Source: a virus
IMG/VR virus record: IMGVR_UViG_3300019926_000023
Span: 1-34,980 of that record
Direction: 5' to 3' (one strand)
Length of the DNA stretch: 34,980 bases
The stretch's first letter is position 1. The number at the start of each line of letters is the position of its first letter. Positions 3,748-31,810 of the stretch are shown here, piece after piece. Both the position numbers and the translations under genes were made by a program. Below the pieces are notes generated by a model. That model was not told the DNA's origin and did not search any database. It saw nothing but the letters and a program-made list of their open reading frames with translations.

Positions 3748-4054
3748 CTAAATCATTCCTCCAATCCTCCTTACTCGGAGGGAGTGTATCATACTGTTCG
3801 ATATACTTCAGGCAGTCAATCAAAACGTCCGGTTTTTCATCAGTATATCTGATCTTACCAGCACGACTTTTACCACTTTCCATACTCTCATCTTTTCGGT
3901 ACAACTTAACCTCATCAACTACACCTTCATAAACTTTGCATCTATCAAAGTAGGTCAATAGGCCCGTAGATTCGTTTCTCACGTAATACTTGTGTCCTGT
4001 ACTTGTTGGACTGCACGCTGAAAGTGTCCAATTCGGAATCTTAAGCGAGCGCAT
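3737..4054 (-). CDS. Hypothetical protein
   Basis: A 105-residue soluble protein with mixed charge and an acidic end (R-N-D-L-D-D-E). No motif recognised. Its end overlaps the start of the downstream membrane protein, consistent with one transcript. Confidence 0.5.
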   Translation of the reverse strand: MRSLKIPNWTLSACSPTSTGHKYYVRNESTGLLTYFDRCKVYEGVVDEVKLYRKDESMESGKSRAGKIRYTDEKPDVLIDCLKYIEQYDTLPPSKEDWRNDLDDE

Positions 4055-4075
4055 ACAGTAACAAAGAGTAGGTTG

Positions 4076-4150
4076 TTACTCATAAGGGTTACGGGTAAGA
4101 AGATAGAAAATAATCGTAGCCACAACACCGCCGATGTATGCTTCATTCAT
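4076..4150 (-). CDS. Membrane micro-protein
   Basis: A 24-codon frame (M-N-E-A-Y-I-G-G...) with one hydrophobic helix, residues 5-18, followed by T-R-N-P-Y-E. Its ATG overlaps the stop of the upstream gene by a few bases. Very short, so it is supported mainly by position and the hydrophobic pattern. Confidence 0.35.
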   Translation of the reverse strand: MNEAYIGGVVATIIFYLLTRNPYE

Positions 4151-6285: not shown

Positions 6286-6289
6286 TTAA

Positions 6290-6375
6290 TGTCGGCGGTG
6301 CGATTTGAACGCACGTACCCGCTACCGGGAAGGGGGCTTAAACCCCTCGCTTTTTCCAAACTCAGCCACGCCGAC
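6290..6375 (-). tRNA. tRNA-Leu (anticodon UAA)
   Basis: On the minus strand a full class II cloverleaf folds: acceptor stem GTCGGCG/CGCCGAC, D arm GCT...AGC, anticodon stem AGGGG/CCCCT with loop TTTAAGC (anticodon TAA), a long variable arm CCCG-GTAG-CGGG, and T arm GTGCG-TTCAAAT-CGCAC. The discriminator base is A and CCA is not encoded. The long variable arm and anticodon agree on leucine, UUA codon. UUA should be rare in GC-rich haloarchaeal hosts and common in this AT-leaning DNA, so it may supplement host decoding (inference). Confidence 0.93.
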
Positions 6376-6400
6376 AAATATACATTGTGACTTATTTTAC

Positions 6401-6664: not shown

Positions 6665-6832
6665 TCAGGAAATTAAAACAATCGCCGTCTCCAATTGGCT
6701 ACTCCGGCTCTCAAACGCATTGCCGGGAGTCTCATACCCCTTCAGGGAGGGATCATTGTCTCCCGGAACACGCACCATGCCTGTAGTTGAGGTTCCAAGT
6801 GGGTTCTCAACCTTGCGAGCTTTTTCTGACAT
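6665..6832 (-). CDS. Hypothetical small protein
   Basis: A 55-residue frame starting M-S-E-K-A-R-K-V, rich in G, P, S and T, with no motif. Local G+C is higher than its surroundings and the codon pattern looks coding. It lies upstream of the broken HNH gene. Not recognised. Confidence 0.4.
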   Translation of the reverse strand: MSEKARKVENPLGTSTTGMVRVPGDNDPSLKGYETPGNAFESRSSQLETAIVLIS

Positions 6833-6872
6833 GGCAATTTAGACAAAGGGAGTATCAAATAAAAACCTTACG

Positions 6873-25564: not shown

Positions 25565-25766
25565 TATCATCAACCTCAAACTCATGGTAAGCTTCGACCC
25601 ACCCCTTGTATCCACGCTTTTGAGATTCACCACTAAGGAAACCAAATATAACAAGATTATCTTTATCTTCCAAAGGCCACGGGTCAGATACCATATATAA
25701 GTCTAACAAGACACGAAACGCTTCATCTGTTATCTTGTCTCTTTCTGATAAAGTTTTATTGCTCAT
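25557..25766 (-). CDS. Hypothetical small protein
   Basis: 69 residues, acidic at the end (H-E-F-E-V-D-D-N-E), with a helical N-terminus (T-D-E-A-F-R-V-L-L-D-L-Y). Overlaps both neighbours by 4-8 bases. Not recognised. Confidence 0.5.
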   Translation of the reverse strand: MSNKTLSERDKITDEAFRVLLDLYMVSDPWPLEDKDNLVIFGFLSGESQKRGYKGWVEAYHEFEVDDNE

Positions 25767-25984
25767 GTATCACACCTTGCACAGTACAACTCATTTGTCT
25801 TTTGATTCATAAACATCTTTTGCTTACAAGAAGGGCATAGATTTGAAACGAATGTTCTTTCACCGGTATGTTTGTGTATGAGTACAAAGTCATTCTTTTC
25901 TCTATCTTCTTCTACTCGATAGTTTTCGGGATCATAAGGTAGTCCGGTTTCTTCAATTACAGCCTCTTCCCAAATATCTCGCAT
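25763..25984 (-). CDS. Hypothetical protein with C-terminal zinc ribbon
   Basis: 73 residues. A short acidic N-terminal part with L-P-Y-D-P-E-N-Y and F-V-L-I-H-K-H-T-G is followed by the recurrent ribbon C-P-S-C-K-Q-K-M-F-M-N-Q-K...L-Y-C-A-R-C. It follows RFC-S by eight bases, as other copies follow replication genes. Confidence 0.6.
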   Translation of the reverse strand: MRDIWEEAVIEETGLPYDPENYRVEEDREKNDFVLIHKHTGERTFVSNLCPSCKQKMFMNQKTNELYCARCDT

Positions 25985-25992
25985 GGTTTATC

Positions 25993-26970
25993 TTATTCGT
26001 AGTTTGGAATCGAAGCGTTACGAGCAACCGGAATTTGTGCCAAGAAGCTACCCAACTGAACGTGCGGGTTAGAACCTTCCTGAATGTTACGCTCTGTTTC
26101 ACCCAACCGACTAATCATGTACCACCGAACATCATCTTCTATAGTATCGTTGTACTTGATTGCGTTCATCAAAGAAGACGCAAACTTAGAGTAGTCAGTA
26201 ACTTCAGGAACAATATCATAGATGAGTGTTTCTTGAGCTTCTTCCATGTTGGCGCTTGCAGCGTTTTCGATCATCTCATCAATCTTGTCTTGTGGGACAG
26301 TCTGTGAAACAACGTCAATAATATCAGTTGTTAACACTCCTTCATCGACAGAGGTTTGTAGAGTATGAACAGCCCGGCGAGCATCACCGGAAGTATAATC
26401 CACAATGGAATCAATTGCTTCATCCTCATACTCAACTTCTGCCTTTTCACAAATCCGTTCAAGTAGTTGTTTTACCTGATGGTTATCAAGTCGTTTGAAC
26501 GGGAGTGAAATACACCGTGACTGAATCGGGTCAATTAATTTGTTTGGGTAGTTACAAGAAAGGATGAATCGGGTATTATCTGCATACTGTTCCATAATCC
26601 TCCGGAGTGCTGCCTGAGCGTCTTTTGTGAGGGAGTCAGCTTCATCAAGGTATATAATCTTGTAACCAAAGTCTCCCGCCGGGGATTGCTTCGCAAGAGA
26701 CTTGATACGGTCACGAACAACATCTATACCACGTTCATCACTTGCGTTCATCTCGATCAAGTTAGAGGACCATCTATCCCCGTACTTGTCCTTAGCAAAA
26801 GCAACAGCAGTTGCCGTCTTCCCCGTACCGGCTGGTCCGTGAAGGAGAAGGTTAGGCATCGAATCATCATCTACCCAATCCTGAAGCCGGGCAATCGTCT
26901 TGTCGTGTCCGATAACTTCTGTGAGCGATTCAGGACGAAACCTTTCAACCCAAACCTCGTTTTGAATCAT
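25993..26970 (-). CDS. rfcS: Replication factor C small subunit
   Basis: 325 residues, the normal archaeal length. N-terminus W-V-E-R-F-R-P is the RFC box; Walker A H-G-P-A-G-T-G-K-T (44-52), Walker B I-I-Y-L-D-E-A-D (105-112), sensor/arginine finger S-R-C (151-153). It forms the hetero-oligomeric clamp loader with RFC-L. No intein. Transcribed from the promoter near 27295 together with the 96-residue gene in front of it. Confidence 0.95.
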   Translation of the reverse strand: MIQNEVWVERFRPESLTEVIGHDKTIARLQDWVDDDSMPNLLLHGPAGTGKTATAVAFAKDKYGDRWSSNLIEMNASDERGIDVVRDRIKSLAKQSPAGDFGYKIIYLDEADSLTKDAQAALRRIMEQYADNTRFILSCNYPNKLIDPIQSRCISLPFKRLDNHQVKQLLERICEKAEVEYEDEAIDSIVDYTSGDARRAVHTLQTSVDEGVLTTDIIDVVSQTVPQDKIDEMIENAASANMEEAQETLIYDIVPEVTDYSKFASSLMNAIKYNDTIEDDVRWYMISRLGETERNIQEGSNPHVQLGSFLAQIPVARNASIPNYE

Positions 26971-27261
26971 TCACTCTTTGATTGCCTCTCCGTCGTTATA
27001 AGACTTACCTCTCGTACTAACATCGTCCGAATCAATGATATGCTGAAAATCAATCATCATAGTCCACGGACGTTTTTCTTCAGCAGAATATAAGTCTGAA
27101 CGTTCATTGTTAATCCACTCTCTATCACGAACAGCCGCTTCTTCAGACTGGTAGATTCCAAGAAGTTCCCCACGAGGATAAATGTCTAACTCACCATACG
27201 GGTCTTCTTCGCCTTCAACATCTTTGTTTGGAATCTTCCACAAACAGACAACCTTTGACAT
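26971..27261 (-). CDS. Hypothetical protein, first gene of the RFC-S operon
   Basis: 96 residues, begins M-S-K-V-V-C-L-W-K-I-P, mixed alpha/beta, acidic. Directly abuts rfcS (one base between its stop and the rfcS start). No motif recognised. Confidence 0.55.
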   Translation of the reverse strand: MSKVVCLWKIPNKDVEGEEDPYGELDIYPRGELLGIYQSEEAAVRDREWINNERSDLYSAEEKRPWTMMIDFQHIIDSDDVSTRGKSYNDGEAIKE

Positions 27262-27287
27262 AGTTTACAGCTTATTCTTAAACTTGG

Positions 27288-27300
27288 AGGGTTATAAATA
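27288..27300 (-). promoter_or_regulatory. TATA box of the RFC-S operon
   Basis: TATTTATAA on the minus strand, centred about 34 bases upstream of the ATG at 27261, would give a leader of a few bases. It is a strong match to the archaeal TATA consensus. Confidence 0.55.
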
Positions 27301-27310
27301 CTTCGTTTGT

Positions 27311-27317
27311 AAAAAAA
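27311..27317 (-). terminator. Oligo-T tract after the candidate ncRNA
   Basis: Seven Ts on the minus strand directly after the closing stem (G-G-G-C-T-A-A then T7). Archaeal RNA polymerase terminates at such tracts. Confidence 0.45.
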
Positions 27318-27320
27318 TTA

Positions 27321-27417
27321 GCCCGTCAGTCCACAGGAAGAAACCCCAAAAACTCCTGTTTCATCCATGTAGCATCAGTATAACGCTGTCGGGGTTGATC
27401 TTCGCGTTAGTGACCGG
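27321..27417 (-). ncRNA. Candidate structured RNA with kissing hairpins
   Basis: Read on the minus strand, this non-coding spacer folds as follows. GTCA (27414-27411) pairs with TGAC (27328-27325), extended by CC/GG. Hairpin 1 is TAACGC/GCGTTA (27409-27404 with 27386-27381), loop 17. Hairpin 2 is ACAGGA/TCCTGT (27359-27354 with 27338-27333), loop 15. Loop 1 contains AACCCC and loop 2 contains GGGGTT, exact complements. A TATA-like ATATAA sits at 27441-27436, about 22-25 bases before the fold, and TTTTTTT (27317-27311) follows it. G+C is higher than the flanks. Not a tRNA: no T-loop. The longest open frame inside is 16 codons. Confidence 0.5.
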
Positions 27418-27435
27418 ATGCAGGCTATTGTAAAC

Positions 27436-27441
27436 TTATAT
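27436..27441 (-). promoter_or_regulatory. TATA-like box for the candidate ncRNA
   Basis: ATATAA on the minus strand between the primase stop and the structured element. The implied start, 22-26 bases on, falls at the 5' base of the outer stem. Confidence 0.4.
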
Positions 27442-27473
27442 CCAAATTTACTTAAAGGTTTTGGGGTTTTGCT

Positions 27474-28613
27474 TTAAAATTGACATTCACCGGAGGTCCA
27501 TGAATATGTTTCGCAACTTTCTGGATCATCAGTCCTTGTACAGAAACCGCGCTTCATCATCGTACTACATGAATACTCTGAATATCTCTTCTTTTTAGCT
27601 TGCTTAACAAACTTTCTCGTTAGGTCAGATTTAAAGTCAATCCAATTCAATCCTCTTGAAACTTCAACTATTTCGTTTACTGAAAATCCCGCGTTAAGCA
27701 TATGGATAGCAAAATTGAGACGTATGTGATGATCAGGATTGCTCTGTTTGATTCTCTCCCGAACACAGGGCATATGGATAGCGTTATCTACTAACATTTC
27801 AGCATAGGAATCAACCTCAGAGCTAACGTCTCTGCTCTCAACTTCCTTCACCGGAGCATTATCCAAATCGGTTTTCTCGTAGTCTTCGTACAAGTCCATC
27901 TCCGGTCTATTCTTCATATCATACCGTTCGGAATATTCTATTTGTCGGGGAGAAGCTGATTCAGCAAATACATCATCGAGAGTCATACCCATAACATCTC
28001 TCCCGGTTAACGGGATAGTCCAAACACCACAGGATACAGCCTCTCCGTTTTCTGTATCTATCCTTTGTGCGTTTGGAACACGTAGAATCCTCCTTACATC
28101 AGTAATTACTTTCCTATCGTGTGTATCCAAATCGCACTCATCAACTAACATATTCGATGTAGATACTTTCTTCCGAACAGGATTAACTTCTTCTTGGTAA
28201 AGGAGATATGTATGAAAGCCAAGCCCTGAGAAAACTGTGAGCGTAGGTATTTCTTCTTGATACGCATACCCAACAAGACTTTCTACATCTTCCCAAACAG
28301 AACCAAGAACATGATGTAAAAGGTCCGGATCTTCTCTCATTCGCTGTATCTTCATTCTATCCGAAGATACATTAGAAAATGCAGAGTCTTTCTTAGCACT
28401 ATCAAAGTCAAAAAATACTGAAGAAAGAACGGGTCGCATATCAGACCTAAACCGGCAAGTCGAACAATAGACATTTTTATCTGGTCTAACTTTCTTGAAA
28501 AACGAATCAAACGACTTTTCAGAGTGTATGTAAAACTGCCTCATTTCTCCATTCTTTGAAGCGGCTACCGAACGAGGGAATCCGTTGTATAGAATCCGTG
28601 AGGCAGTATCCAT
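27474..28613 (-). CDS. Archaeo-eukaryotic primase with PriL-like C-terminus
   Basis: 379 residues from the ATG at 28613; the frame opens with a TTG six codons earlier. AEP catalytic features: V-F-F-D-F-D-S (67-72) with the metal-binding D-x-D, and F-S-G-L-G-F-H (128-134). A Y-C-S-T-C pair (49-53) may bind zinc. After residue 270 the sequence resembles the Fe-S domain of PriL: M-P-C-V-R-E-R, R-L-N-F-A-I-H-M-L, then S-C-S-T-M-M-K-R-G-F-C and two further late cysteines. So catalytic and PriL-like parts are in one chain. It makes primers for PolB; gene neighbours are PCNA and RFC-S. Confidence 0.85.
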   Translation of the reverse strand: MDTASRILYNGFPRSVAASKNGEMRQFYIHSEKSFDSFFKKVRPDKNVYCSTCRFRSDMRPVLSSVFFDFDSAKKDSAFSNVSSDRMKIQRMREDPDLLHHVLGSVWEDVESLVGYAYQEEIPTLTVFSGLGFHTYLLYQEEVNPVRKKVSTSNMLVDECDLDTHDRKVITDVRRILRVPNAQRIDTENGEAVSCGVWTIPLTGRDVMGMTLDDVFAESASPRQIEYSERYDMKNRPEMDLYEDYEKTDLDNAPVKEVESRDVSSEVDSYAEMLVDNAIHMPCVRERIKQSNPDHHIRLNFAIHMLNAGFSVNEIVEVSRGLNWIDFKSDLTRKFVKQAKKKRYSEYSCSTMMKRGFCTRTDDPESCETYSWTSGECQF

Positions 28614-28640
28614 TCTTACTTCACGATACAAGACAAGAGG

Positions 28641-28649
28641 TTAAAAGGA
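28641..28649 (-). promoter_or_regulatory. TATA-like box for the primase
   Basis: CCTTTTAAC on the minus strand, 28-36 bases before the primase ATG at 28613, immediately next to the PCNA stop. Confidence 0.4.
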
Positions 28650-29477
28650 TTACGCAGTTGGGAGAAGCGCATACCGACAAGTCATACCGGACTCATCATA
28701 GACAACAGAAAGGGGATGGTCTTGTTCAGTCATAACTTCTACAGTCCCATCAATAGAACCGAATAGCTCCGCAAAGCCGCGAGAATAGGTATTCGATACA
28801 TCCGGCCCGTCAACAGAGTGTGCGTTGAGAGCGCCCGTAAGGGTGTTACGTTGGTTCTCATCAGTCGCCTCAAGCACAAGTTCACCATCTTCAATAGTCA
28901 CGGGATAACTATTGAGCGAAAATTCATCAAATTCCTTCGCACGAACGATACGGTTCAACTCAGATGTATCGACCGTGAACTTGGTACTCATAGGCTCACC
29001 GCTACTCTGCTTAGTCCATCGGTCCCGTTCATCGTACAGTTGAGTAACAGAGAGTAGCATAGACTCAAGGTAACTGTTACTCGTCGGGATATAGATGGTA
29101 GCAGTAAGCTCTCCATCTAACTCCATCACAGACGAAAGCCTATCATCACCATTACCGAAGATTGAAACAGTAACGCTCTCTCCACCAACAAAATCAAGGT
29201 ACTGTCTCATCTCTTCAGCATCAATGATAGCCTCTGTACCGGCTTCCTCATCAACATCTCCATCTAACGTAAGATCGTTCAGGAATTCCTCTCGGAAGGT
29301 ACAGTACGAGGTAATCGACTCTCCCGCATTTGCGATACTCCGGATTCCACCCTCAAAGATGTTCAGGTAAACTTCTTTGTACCTGTCTTCAAGAGGTGCG
29401 GTAGCGTGGTTGATAATCTTGTAAACGTCGCCCGTATCAACGGTAAACGACGCTCGGTGTTCTAAATCTTCAGTCAT
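28650..29477 (-). CDS. pcn: PCNA-type sliding clamp
   Basis: 275 residues, slightly longer than cellular PCNA. Recognisable by the strand pattern, the acidic surface, T-F-x-V-D-T-S-E-L-N-R-I-V opening the second domain, and the end P-L-S-V-V-Y-D-E-S-G-M-T-C-R-Y-A-L-L-P, typical of archaeal PCNA. Encircles DNA as a trimer and tethers PolB and PIP-tailed partners. Its ATG overlaps the stop of the 48-residue gene upstream. Confidence 0.85.
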   Translation of the reverse strand: MTEDLEHRASFTVDTGDVYKIINHATAPLEDRYKEVYLNIFEGGIRSIANAGESITSYCTFREEFLNDLTLDGDVDEEAGTEAIIDAEEMRQYLDFVGGESVTVSIFGNGDDRLSSVMELDGELTATIYIPTSNSYLESMLLSVTQLYDERDRWTKQSSGEPMSTKFTVDTSELNRIVRAKEFDEFSLNSYPVTIEDGELVLEATDENQRNTLTGALNAHSVDGPDVSNTYSRGFAELFGSIDGTVEVMTEQDHPLSVVYDESGMTCRYALLPTA

Positions 29478-29623
29478 TATTGTTCGGGCTTGTAAAGGTC
29501 GTATTTGTTACCATCCTGATGCACAACCTCAACTACACCGTCTTCTAACTTATCCTTTACGGATACAACATCATCTTCGTCTGAGTTGATATCGTGAAAC
29601 TCAACGGTCGCAAACTTGACCAT
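29477..29623 (-). CDS. Small acidic protein next to PCNA
   Basis: 48 residues beginning M-V-K-F-A-T-V-E-F-H-D, acidic middle (D-E-D-D-V-V-S-V), ending Y-D-L-Y-K-P-E-Q. A single small beta domain is likely. Sits between the Sak4-like gene and PCNA, overlapping the latter. Function unknown. Confidence 0.5.
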   Translation of the reverse strand: MVKFATVEFHDINSDEDDVVSVKDKLEDGVVEVVHQDGNKYDLYKPEQ

Positions 29624-29636
29624 AATTCGATTTTTG

Positions 29637-30806
29637 TTATTCATGAATCTCCATTGTATTGCCTTCAGTAAAGTTTAGCTCATACGGTACTTCAATTTCG
29701 GAACGTAGCTCAAGTTCCGAATCCACACCGCTCGCTTCTGCCTGTTCAATCGCCTCTGTAATTTCTTTGTGTTTCTCAAAGGTGGGACGGGTAAGGCCGA
29801 GATACTTGAATCGGTTTCGGCCACTCTTCCGTTGGAAACCGGTAGGAACACCTTCTTCATCGAGTTGAAGTTGGATGATATCGTTTACCTTGTACTTGTT
29901 GTTAGTTTCGCCTGCCGGTTTAACAGGAGTCTTTTCAAGACCCTCCTGAATCTTAGCCCCAACATCATCCTTCTGCATTTCGGTCCAACAGACGTGGAAA
30001 TCACATTCCTCAATGGGTTTCCGGAACGTCTCATTGTGATAGTCTTTGATCTTTCCCCAATCCTGAAGATCCATGTTGGCATCTTCCGGGGCCGTGTTGG
30101 GGTAGTAATCATCAATATACTTGTACTGTGACCACTCCCACATCACCGACATACTATCAATTACAAGCGTTCCGGTATCACCCGTTTCTGCTTCCCATTG
30201 TTCAAGCACATCAAGTGCTTGTTCAACCGCCTCACACGCTTCCGTGAAGGACTTAGGTTGCCAAATCTTGACCTGCTTATCAGAGAACTTGGAAGCGATA
30301 TCTTCTGCCTTATTCTCTGTATCAACGAGCATAATTGGTTCAGGCATGGTATATGCAAAGTGCGTCTTACCCATACCTTCACCGCCCCAAATCATCATCT
30401 TCCATGTATGTTCCTTATCAGCAGCATCGGAAACATCCATAGCATTTGGAGCTAGACGGTCAAGGTCTAATGCAGATGAATTATCATCATTTTCCGTCTC
30501 CGGTTCGGACACCGTATTCTCTTCGGAAGTATCCTCAGTCCCCATTGATTCAATATCAGGAACTTCATCCTCCACCTCATCCAATTCTTCCTCCGCTTCT
30601 AACTCATCAATACGTTCACGGTACTTCTCACAGACCGACTTCCGGGAATCGGATTCGTGCGCTTGTTCAAGCAACTCAACATCTTCAACACCATCAATCT
30701 CATCGACAATCTCGGTGGGGCTTAGAGTTTCAAGCTCGTTGCTCTCAACAGCCTCTTCAAACGAAAGCTCATCATCAGCCTCTTGCGCTTTGTCTGACCA
30801 TCCCAT
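29637..30806 (-). CDS. Sak4-like RecA-fold ATPase
   Basis: 389 residues. Residues 1-130 are an acidic, low-complexity helical region. The ATPase core follows: Walker A W-G-G-E-G-M-G-K-T (140-148), Walker B T-L-V-I-D-S-M-S (213-220), and a C-W-T-E-M-Q segment as in phage AAA_24/Sak4 proteins. These are viral RecA-like proteins that promote strand annealing with an SSB. It lies next to the probable ssDNA-binding protein, as Sak4 genes often do. The acidic extension is unusual and may interact with partners. Confidence 0.7.
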   Translation of the reverse strand: MGWSDKAQEADDELSFEEAVESNELETLSPTEIVDEIDGVEDVELLEQAHESDSRKSVCEKYRERIDELEAEEELDEVEDEVPDIESMGTEDTSEENTVSEPETENDDNSSALDLDRLAPNAMDVSDAADKEHTWKMMIWGGEGMGKTHFAYTMPEPIMLVDTENKAEDIASKFSDKQVKIWQPKSFTEACEAVEQALDVLEQWEAETGDTGTLVIDSMSVMWEWSQYKYIDDYYPNTAPEDANMDLQDWGKIKDYHNETFRKPIEECDFHVCWTEMQKDDVGAKIQEGLEKTPVKPAGETNNKYKVNDIIQLQLDEEGVPTGFQRKSGRNRFKYLGLTRPTFEKHKEITEAIEQAEASGVDSELELRSEIEVPYELNFTEGNTMEIHE

Positions 30807-30808
30807 AT

Positions 30809-31810
30809 TTAAATCTCCATTCGGTCGGCATCAGTTTCAACTTCTTCATCCGAATCAGAAGAACCCGTGGTGTCAACTGTCCCATCAAAGTCTTGAGCGA
30901 AGATGGGATTGACAGCAACGGCGTTCATCTGAATCTGCCCATCATCATTCTGTGTAACAGTACCGAAGAATTCACACACAGAACCATTACCGTACTCCAT
31001 CATTTCAGGATCAGTCCAACACGTTAGGCCGGGAGTACGCGACTCTTCATCATAGATAGGCGAATCGGCAATGTCTTCATCATCGAAGACAGTTTCATCA
31101 CGGAGTGTGTAGATTCCAAAGTCATTACTCTTGTAGGCATCGTAGATATCAGCCTCAATCATCTTCAGATCAACTCCAAAGTCAACAGGATACTCATCTC
31201 CGTTATCGCTAACCTCCGTCGCACTCATGTTATCAGCAATGTTCTCGATTTTAAACTCCGGGATAACATTCCGGATTTCAGAAACCATAGCATCACGGTT
31301 CGGCGGTTCCTGCACGGAAACTTCAGTACCAGAAGAGGAATTCAACACAAGATGCCGTTCAATATCGGATTCCGAAACCGAGAATTCACCGGTAACGATG
31401 TTACCCATTTCAGAGAACACATCATACACAAAGGGAATCTCAATCCCGTCTTCCTCATCGAAGAGGATAACAGAGACGTGCGGTTGTTCTTCCTTCTCAA
31501 CAAGACCGTATGCAACGAGAACATCATGCTCACCCACAACGTTCCCGTTATCGTCGTACTTATTCCAACTCCGAACACCGCCATGCCCGATAGTTAGAAC
31601 CTCAATCTCCTCGGTTGGCATCCGACTATCAGCAACCTCGGAAGATCGAGTAAAGCGGAGAGCAATACTTTCCATCTTCTCATCGGAAAGTCCACTTGTG
31701 CTACTCTGAACCTCCTCAAGATTCTCTTCATACTTCTCTTCGATTACTTCAAACTCAACTTCAAAGTCTTCTGCAAGCGACTCAAGCTCATCACGGGTTT
31801 CGTCCATCAT
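30809..31810 (-). CDS. Probable ssDNA-binding protein
   Basis: 333 residues: a coiled-coil-like acidic N-terminus (1-50), then beta-rich segments (I-A-L-R-F-T-R, H-D-V-L-V-A-Y-G-L-V, V-S-V-I-L-F-D) that could form OB folds, a second beta-rich part with V-C-E-F-F-G-T-V-T, and a strongly acidic tail (D-S-D-E-E-V-E-T-D-A-D). The acidic tail, abundance of beta strands, first place in the replisome operon and neighbour Sak4 point to an SSB/RPA analogue. No sequence motif is diagnostic, so this is inference. Confidence 0.5.
   Translation of the reverse strand: MMDETRDELESLAEDFEVEFEVIEEKYEENLEEVQSSTSGLSDEKMESIALRFTRSSEVADSRMPTEEIEVLTIGHGGVRSWNKYDDNGNVVGEHDVLVAYGLVEKEEQPHVSVILFDEEDGIEIPFVYDVFSEMGNIVTGEFSVSESDIERHLVLNSSSGTEVSVQEPPNRDAMVSEIRNVIPEFKIENIADNMSATEVSDNGDEYPVDFGVDLKMIEADIYDAYKSNDFGIYTLRDETVFDDEDIADSPIYDEESRTPGLTCWTDPEMMEYGNGSVCEFFGTVTQNDDGQIQMNAVAVNPIFAQDFDGTVDTTGSSDSDEEVETDADRMEI

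Follow-up and report, generated by a model that had tools for sequence, protein, structure and literature searches.

The window, that is, the whole stretch of DNA analysed here, is a virus record of 34,980 bases with a G+C content of 40%. Its minus strand carries a set of replication genes recognised with Pfam and PHROGs, namely a family B DNA polymerase, a PD-(D/E)XK nuclease, the small subunit of replication factor C (RFC-S), an ORF of 96 amino acids (ORF96), a primase and AAA/RadA-like proteins. Compared with proteins of cultured Druskaviridae infecting Haloarcula, the primase has an identity of 36-38% and RFC-S one of ~40%. The replication genes of these viruses (HCTV-1, HCTV-5, HCTV-16 and HVTV-1/2) resemble those of the window and follow a similar order of AAA protein, clamp-like gene, primase, RFC-S and nuclease. 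Membership of the family was judged on replication gene set and order, the window being an incomplete fragment; given the 36-38% identity of the primase and the similar gene order, its likeliest source is a druskavirus-like tailed virus of haloarchaea.

Between the primase and the ORF96/RFC-S pair lies a spacer of 212 nt (27262-27473), wider than any other gap found when the genes between 19.9 and 31.8 kb were checked. The features of the locus, in the order in which the minus strand is read, are as follows.

27474-28631, minus strand: upstream primase gene (Pfam DNA_primase_lrg).
27449-27462, minus strand: proposed promoter CAAAACC...TTTAAGTA (CGAAA plus TTTTAAGTA in the relatives), with a predicted start at ~27428-27424.
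27435-27441, minus strand: ATATAAG, the box favoured by an earlier note on this DNA, conserved in both relatives, with a predicted start at ~27412.
27311-27428, minus strand: proposed small RNA gene of ~110-118 nt, non-coding, carried by the window and the virus contigs L004 and L003/L011 only, with no Rfam match.
27421-27427, minus strand: 5' strand of the outer stem P0, TAGCCTG, pairing with 27319-27325 at a pair probability of 0.88-1.0 on average over the three sequences.
27415-27420, minus strand: 5' strand of stem Pa, CATCCG, pairing with 27362-27367 in all three sequences, with C-G becoming U-G at 27416.
27381-27409, minus strand: hairpin P2, TAACGC/GCGTTA, its loop holding AACCCC at 27391-27396.
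27371-27387, minus strand: alternative hairpin AGCGTTA-TAC-TGATGCT, competing with P2, at a pair probability of 0.6-0.9.
27362-27367, minus strand: 3' strand of stem Pa, TGGATG.
27333-27359, minus strand: hairpin P3, ACAGGAG/TTCCTGT, its loop holding GGGGTT at 27342-27347, with two A-U to G-U changes in the relatives.
27319-27325, minus strand: 3' strand of the outer stem P0, CGGGCTA.
27311-27317, minus strand: T7 tract (T5 in the relatives), a likely terminator.
27292-27300, minus strand: TATA-like box TATTTATAA of the ORF96/RFC-S operon, whose distance to the start codon at 27261 would suit a short leader.
26971-27261, minus strand: downstream ORF of 96 amino acids with no assigned function.
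25993-26970, minus strand: replication factor C small subunit (Pfam and PHROGs).

The earlier note, made from the letters alone, had described a spacer able to close on itself around two 6-bp hairpins with complementary loops, set between a TATA-like box and a T tract, and inspection of the sequence found each of these elements on the minus strand. The hairpins are TAACGC/GCGTTA at 27409-27404/27386-27381 and ACAGGA/TCCTGT at 27359-27354/27338-27333, the second being lengthened to 7 bp by a G-U pair. The loop complements AACCCC and GGGGTT occupy 27396-27391 and 27347-27342, GTCA/TGAC lies at 27414-27411/27328-27325 with CC/GG also there, the TATA-like box is TATATAAG at ~27441-27435 and the T7 tract runs from 27317 to 27311. 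The segment is also non-coding, as had been claimed: a plus-strand ORF that overlaps it (27182-27433) is disrupted in L004 by a 2-nt deletion, and stops occur in all minus-strand frames.

The combination of elements was compared with chance expectation. Two 6-bp hairpins of Watson-Crick pairs only, with 6 nt of loop complementarity, did not arise once when the segment was put through 5000 dinucleotide shuffles; when G-U pairs were allowed in the stems 2.0% of shuffles matched, and 0.6% when the closing stem was also required. Across the window, on one strand, three kissing-hairpin pairs of any composition were found against 0.9 expected, and one with at least four G/C in the kiss against 0.07 expected. 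The z-score of the minimum free energy (MFE) was -2.2 for the minus strand compared with -1.15 for the plus strand, and -0.2 for L004 with slightly different limits. Taken as one sequence the segment is unusual, not overwhelmingly so.

The promoter had originally been placed so that transcription would begin at the closing stem. The ATATAAG box on which that placement relied is indeed kept, but the 5' end of P0 is fitted instead by a haloarchaeal-type box, TTTAAGTA at 27456-27449, from which the predicted start falls at 27428-27424. In the alignment an exact CGAAA precedes the TTTTAAGTA box of both relatives; CGAAA has been proposed as the haloarchaeal BRE, with TTWT as the TATA motif (PMC4983044). 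The terminator suggested for the other end is likely, with a T7 tract there and T5 in the relatives; in a Haloferax reporter a T stretch terminated transcription efficiently (PMC7237163). Transcription would start at ~27427, from a haloarchaeal-type promoter where primase and spacer meet, and the T tract would end it at ~27311, the predicted product being an RNA of ~110 nt with a 7-bp closing stem.

The TATA-like box of the ORF96/RFC-S operon lies ~12-20 nt past the 3' end of the RNA and, since this box at 27292-27300 is separate, the RNA is probably not the leader of the next operon. The same observation bears on the possibility of a cis element, in which the primase transcript would have its 3' untranslated and terminator region here, or the segment would be a read-through leader regulating ORF96/RFC-S, and no separate RNA would be made. 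Its position between two co-directional replication genes and its ending in a T tract would suit such an element, but the promoter-like boxes upstream together with the separate box downstream argue against it, as does a structure that far exceeds the needs of a T-stretch terminator, and a role purely in cis is considered unlikely.

The stems common to the three sequences include P0, Pa, P2, P3 and AACCCC/GGGGTT, five helices that can all form together: a three-way junction is closed by P0, which stacks without a gap on Pa, and Pa carries P2. In the mature RNA as proposed here P0 would stack on domain A (Pa/P2), with P2 and P3 kissing loop to loop through AACCCC/GGGGTT. All 96 of 96 pair cells are standard in the three sequences against 37-46% when the partners are slid by 1-3 columns, a result that is expected in part because the stems were picked as shared. 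The first description needs qualifying on two counts. Closing by GTCA/TGAC is present in the sequence but is not the best solution, P0 being longer at 7 bp, having a probability of 0.88-1.0 in all three sequences and starting at the predicted start site. The two hairpins with kissing loops are likewise present, but the nested-fold ensemble gives them a probability close to zero and, in the window, pairs AACCCC with GGGGTT inside a rod.

That rod offers a different fold for the same RNA gene, a long structure that P0 closes, in which AACCCC/GGGGTT of the window is nested, the alternative hairpin lies inside and the loops do not kiss. It is the MFE structure of the window (-35.3), each of the three sequences favours P0 and the inner hairpin, and the mismatches that flank the inner hairpin in the window (C.A and A.C) become U-A and G-U in the relatives. 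The nested part of the kissing fold reaches -25.7 kcal/mol in the window and -21.5 in the relatives, against -33 to -35 for the best nested fold, which is the rod; the isolated loop-loop duplex contributes ~-8 to -12 before penalties, and the kissing fold nears the energy of the rod only once P0 and CATCCG/TGGATG are added, so the energies do not favour it. However, conservation fails in the central part of the rod: both relatives lack the pair at 27400, and the probability of the nested AACCCC/GGGGTT helix drops from ~1 in the window to 0.2 and 0 in the relatives. The rod is regarded as doubtful. The kissing three-way junction is a plausible model of the fold, and it stays unproven because there is no double-sided covariation and the rod is predicted to be more stable.

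The spacer is carried by two other virus contigs, L004 and L003/L011, at 87-91% identity over the aligned stretch, and the RNA differs from that of the window at 7 and 8 positions, respectively. On the minus strand, A to G at 27354 and 27359 turns A-U into G-U in P3, C to U at 27416 alters Pa, and C to U at 27391 in L011 turns a kissing C-G pair into U-G. The change of G to A at 27400 falls in the P2 loop, as do the substitutions at 27388 and 27389, and 27369 lies in a joining strand. None of the eight substituted positions breaks a stem of the kissing fold, all being in unpaired stretches or keeping their pair through G-U, and the four paired changes preserve pairing only in an RNA of minus-strand sequence. 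This agreement is weak evidence because seven of the eight changes are of a G-U-compatible type anyway. The covariation test, on three near-identical sequences, found all pairs kept, with four one-sided G-U changes and none double-sided.

In the 5' part of the RNA 9-11% of sites differ, whereas in the neighbouring primase gene the figure for 4-fold sites is 49%; the contrast with the 45 nt just upstream of the RNA is weaker (20-24%, Fisher p ~0.07-0.11). At 4-fold sites ORF96 differs at 1 of 32 and RFC-S at 18 of 141 (3-13%). A comparison of positions 25733-31742 with L004 is mosaic, the primase region showing ~70-95% identity per 100 nt and ORF96/RFC-S mostly 95-100%, and divergence switches at or beside the RNA spacer. 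Since the spacer sits at this boundary, purifying selection and recombination are not cleanly separable, and recent recombination may be a partial cause of its conservation. A more sceptical reading would hold that the stems are due to chance, that a recombination boundary accounts for the likeness to the relatives and that the segment has no function. The z-score is modest, there are only three carriers and similarity climbs sharply toward the RFC-S side, all of which suit that reading. Loop-complementary hairpins of this kind are nevertheless rarer than chance would give, promoter and terminator are aligned with them and every substitution fits the fold, and lack of function is considered rather unlikely.

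A covariance model (R1) applied to 20 virus records, including the whole genomes of HCTV-1, HCTV-5, HCTV-16 and HVTV, returned only the three carriers. Pattern scans of IMG/VR (two patterns) and of GTDB genomes (one pattern), followed by the covariance model, likewise found only the known carriers, while blastn against phages and plasmids gave short chance matches only and alignment of the primase to GTDB genomes revealed no provirus. The RNA gene is probably real, but its carriers are limited to three closely related sequences, which is why its shape and its job are unproven.

The place after the primase is variously occupied in related viruses. In the cultured druskaviruses, which are without the RNA of the window, a hypothetical gene and then thymidylate kinase follow the primase, and in L024 the next ORF appears by eye to be HNH endonuclease-like. 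L014 has a small ORF, then three tRNA genes and then RFC-S, L015 a small ORF followed by a tRNA cluster, and L013 a tRNA cluster two genes past the primase. Structured segments without a family adjoin the tRNAs in L013-L015; the same kissing pattern was not seen in those that were folded. The region is a cargo site, occupied by RNA genes in some of the more distant relatives, and so a small RNA gene is a natural reading of the spacer.

Several of these segments can be described individually. In L014 a four-way-junction, cloverleaf-like segment with a 12-bp closing stem (4016-4106, z -6.05) lies directly before tRNA-Leu/Arg/Trp and is no tRNA by ARAGORN or Rfam. Structured segments are found between tRNA genes in L013 (5380-5468, 10-bp closing stem) and L015 (7612-7690, z -4.2), and L015 7918-8050 is a tRNA by Rfam only (32 bits, 133 nt) and seems to contain a long intron.

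With tRNA genes lying between the primase and RFC-S or the next gene in L014 and L015, and with a P0 of 7 bp followed by an A, the spacer of the window might itself be a degenerate or intron-containing tRNA, a remnant of such a cluster. Against this, the sole tRNA that ARAGORN finds in the window is tRNA-Leu at 6289-6376, the Rfam tRNA model gives no match with E up to 5 and the T-loop GTTC motif is absent by eye; a tRNA origin was rejected as very improbable.

A second RNA of ~65-73 nt occurs at 6773-6837 of the window (minus strand), L013 4982-5054 (plus strand) and L015 7846-7910 (plus strand), and is laid out as a 7-bp stem, AGAAAANGYTYGCAAG, a hairpin, TACA and the closing strand. Nine of its 13 pairs change on both sides in the three sequences, which 0 of 500 shuffles reach, and its support is stronger than that of the kissing-loop RNA. 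It lies inside tRNA clusters in L013 and L015 and ~400 nt from tRNA-Leu in the window. Rfam gave no match for it in L013, L015 or the window, and it was not found in the HCTV-1, HCTV-5, HCTV-16 and HVTV genomes. In the window it overlaps an ORF of 55 amino acids that has no matches among phage records, and a stop codon seen by eye in the corresponding frame of L013 argues against coding. Directly after it in the window is a strong hairpin, GCGTGTTCCGGGAG...CTCCCGGCAATGCG (6706-6775, minus strand, z -3.4), and at ~6665-6706 the stretch GCCGGAGTAGCCAATTGGAGACGGC looks by eye like the 5' half of a tRNA. A weak partial match to the second-RNA model (E 0.02) was also obtained at L124 1501-1540 (minus strand), on a contig of L006, in a stretch that holds a tRNA-Met as well.

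The most likely reading of the spacer is a new small viral noncoding RNA acting in trans. We put the probability of an independent small noncoding RNA gene with a kissing-loop three-way-junction fold and a trans-acting role at about 0.5, and it is from the sequence that we infer the transcription of the RNA, its kissing interaction and its action in trans. The structured RNA gene first suggested for the spacer is favoured by the promoter spacing, the two relatives and the G-U-compatible changes, whereas its closing stem, fold and start site needed correcting. Once folded, the stable RNA might bind a protein or another RNA, of the host or of the virus, during infection. Action in trans is suggested by the promoter-to-T-tract layout, by the lack of long antisense matches in the window, where only scattered 11-mers were found, and by the tRNAs and structured segments of the relatives.

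If real, the viral RNA would be compact and its pseudoknotted fold open to testing; added to the covarying RNA at 6773-6837, it would point to more RNA genes in these viruses than protein-centred annotation reveals. No published accounts of structured noncoding RNAs besides tRNAs were found for haloarchaeal tailed viruses; by term search the main comparative survey mentions tRNAs and, within the reach of those terms, not noncoding or structured RNAs (PMC8651126). Counting the kissing-loop RNA, the covarying RNA and the others in L013-L015, it is conceivable, if rather improbable, that AT-rich druskavirus-like haloviruses possess, within and near their tRNA clusters, a repertoire of small structured RNAs not described before, the kissing-loop RNA being a new class that acts on host translation or RNA processing.

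The earlier impression that the RNA resembles no tRNA or known archaeal RNA agrees with Rfam 15, which gave no match for it in the window at gathering score; a permissive scan of 27200-27560 gave nothing better than E 1.8, to an unrelated miRNA model. The self-cleaving ribozymes, C/D and H/ACA guide RNAs and CRISPR repeats held in Rfam gave no match even at the permissive threshold. Hammerhead-like CUGAUG and GAAACAGG strings were dropped by eye, being without stem II and having a disallowed base at the cleavage site. The purine riboswitch aptamer is a kissing-loop three-way junction, in which an outer stem bears two arms joined by a loop-loop contact. What the viral RNA, as proposed, has in common with it is architecture only; the core sequence is unshared, there is no Rfam match and the RNA is no leader of a purine gene. 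With the intergenic small RNAs of haloarchaea such as Haloferax volcanii (PMC6490895, PMC4983044) it would share the promoter and T-stretch terminator logic of the host group, but it is virus-encoded and one pattern found no sequence relatives in GTDB genomes. The closest known kind, by analogy, would be the noncoding RNAs near phage tRNA islands, GOLLD and ROOL, ornate RNAs of phages and prophages of which GOLLD is often >800 nt, and whose models are held in Rfam (PMC12286853); their covariance models gave no match in the window. The RNA described here differs in being ~110 nt rather than several hundred, in belonging to an archaeal virus and in having no adjoining tRNA in the window. It resembles them as a putative virus-encoded structured noncoding RNA with no assigned function, with a proposed loop-loop contact and in a region that holds tRNA clusters in its relatives.
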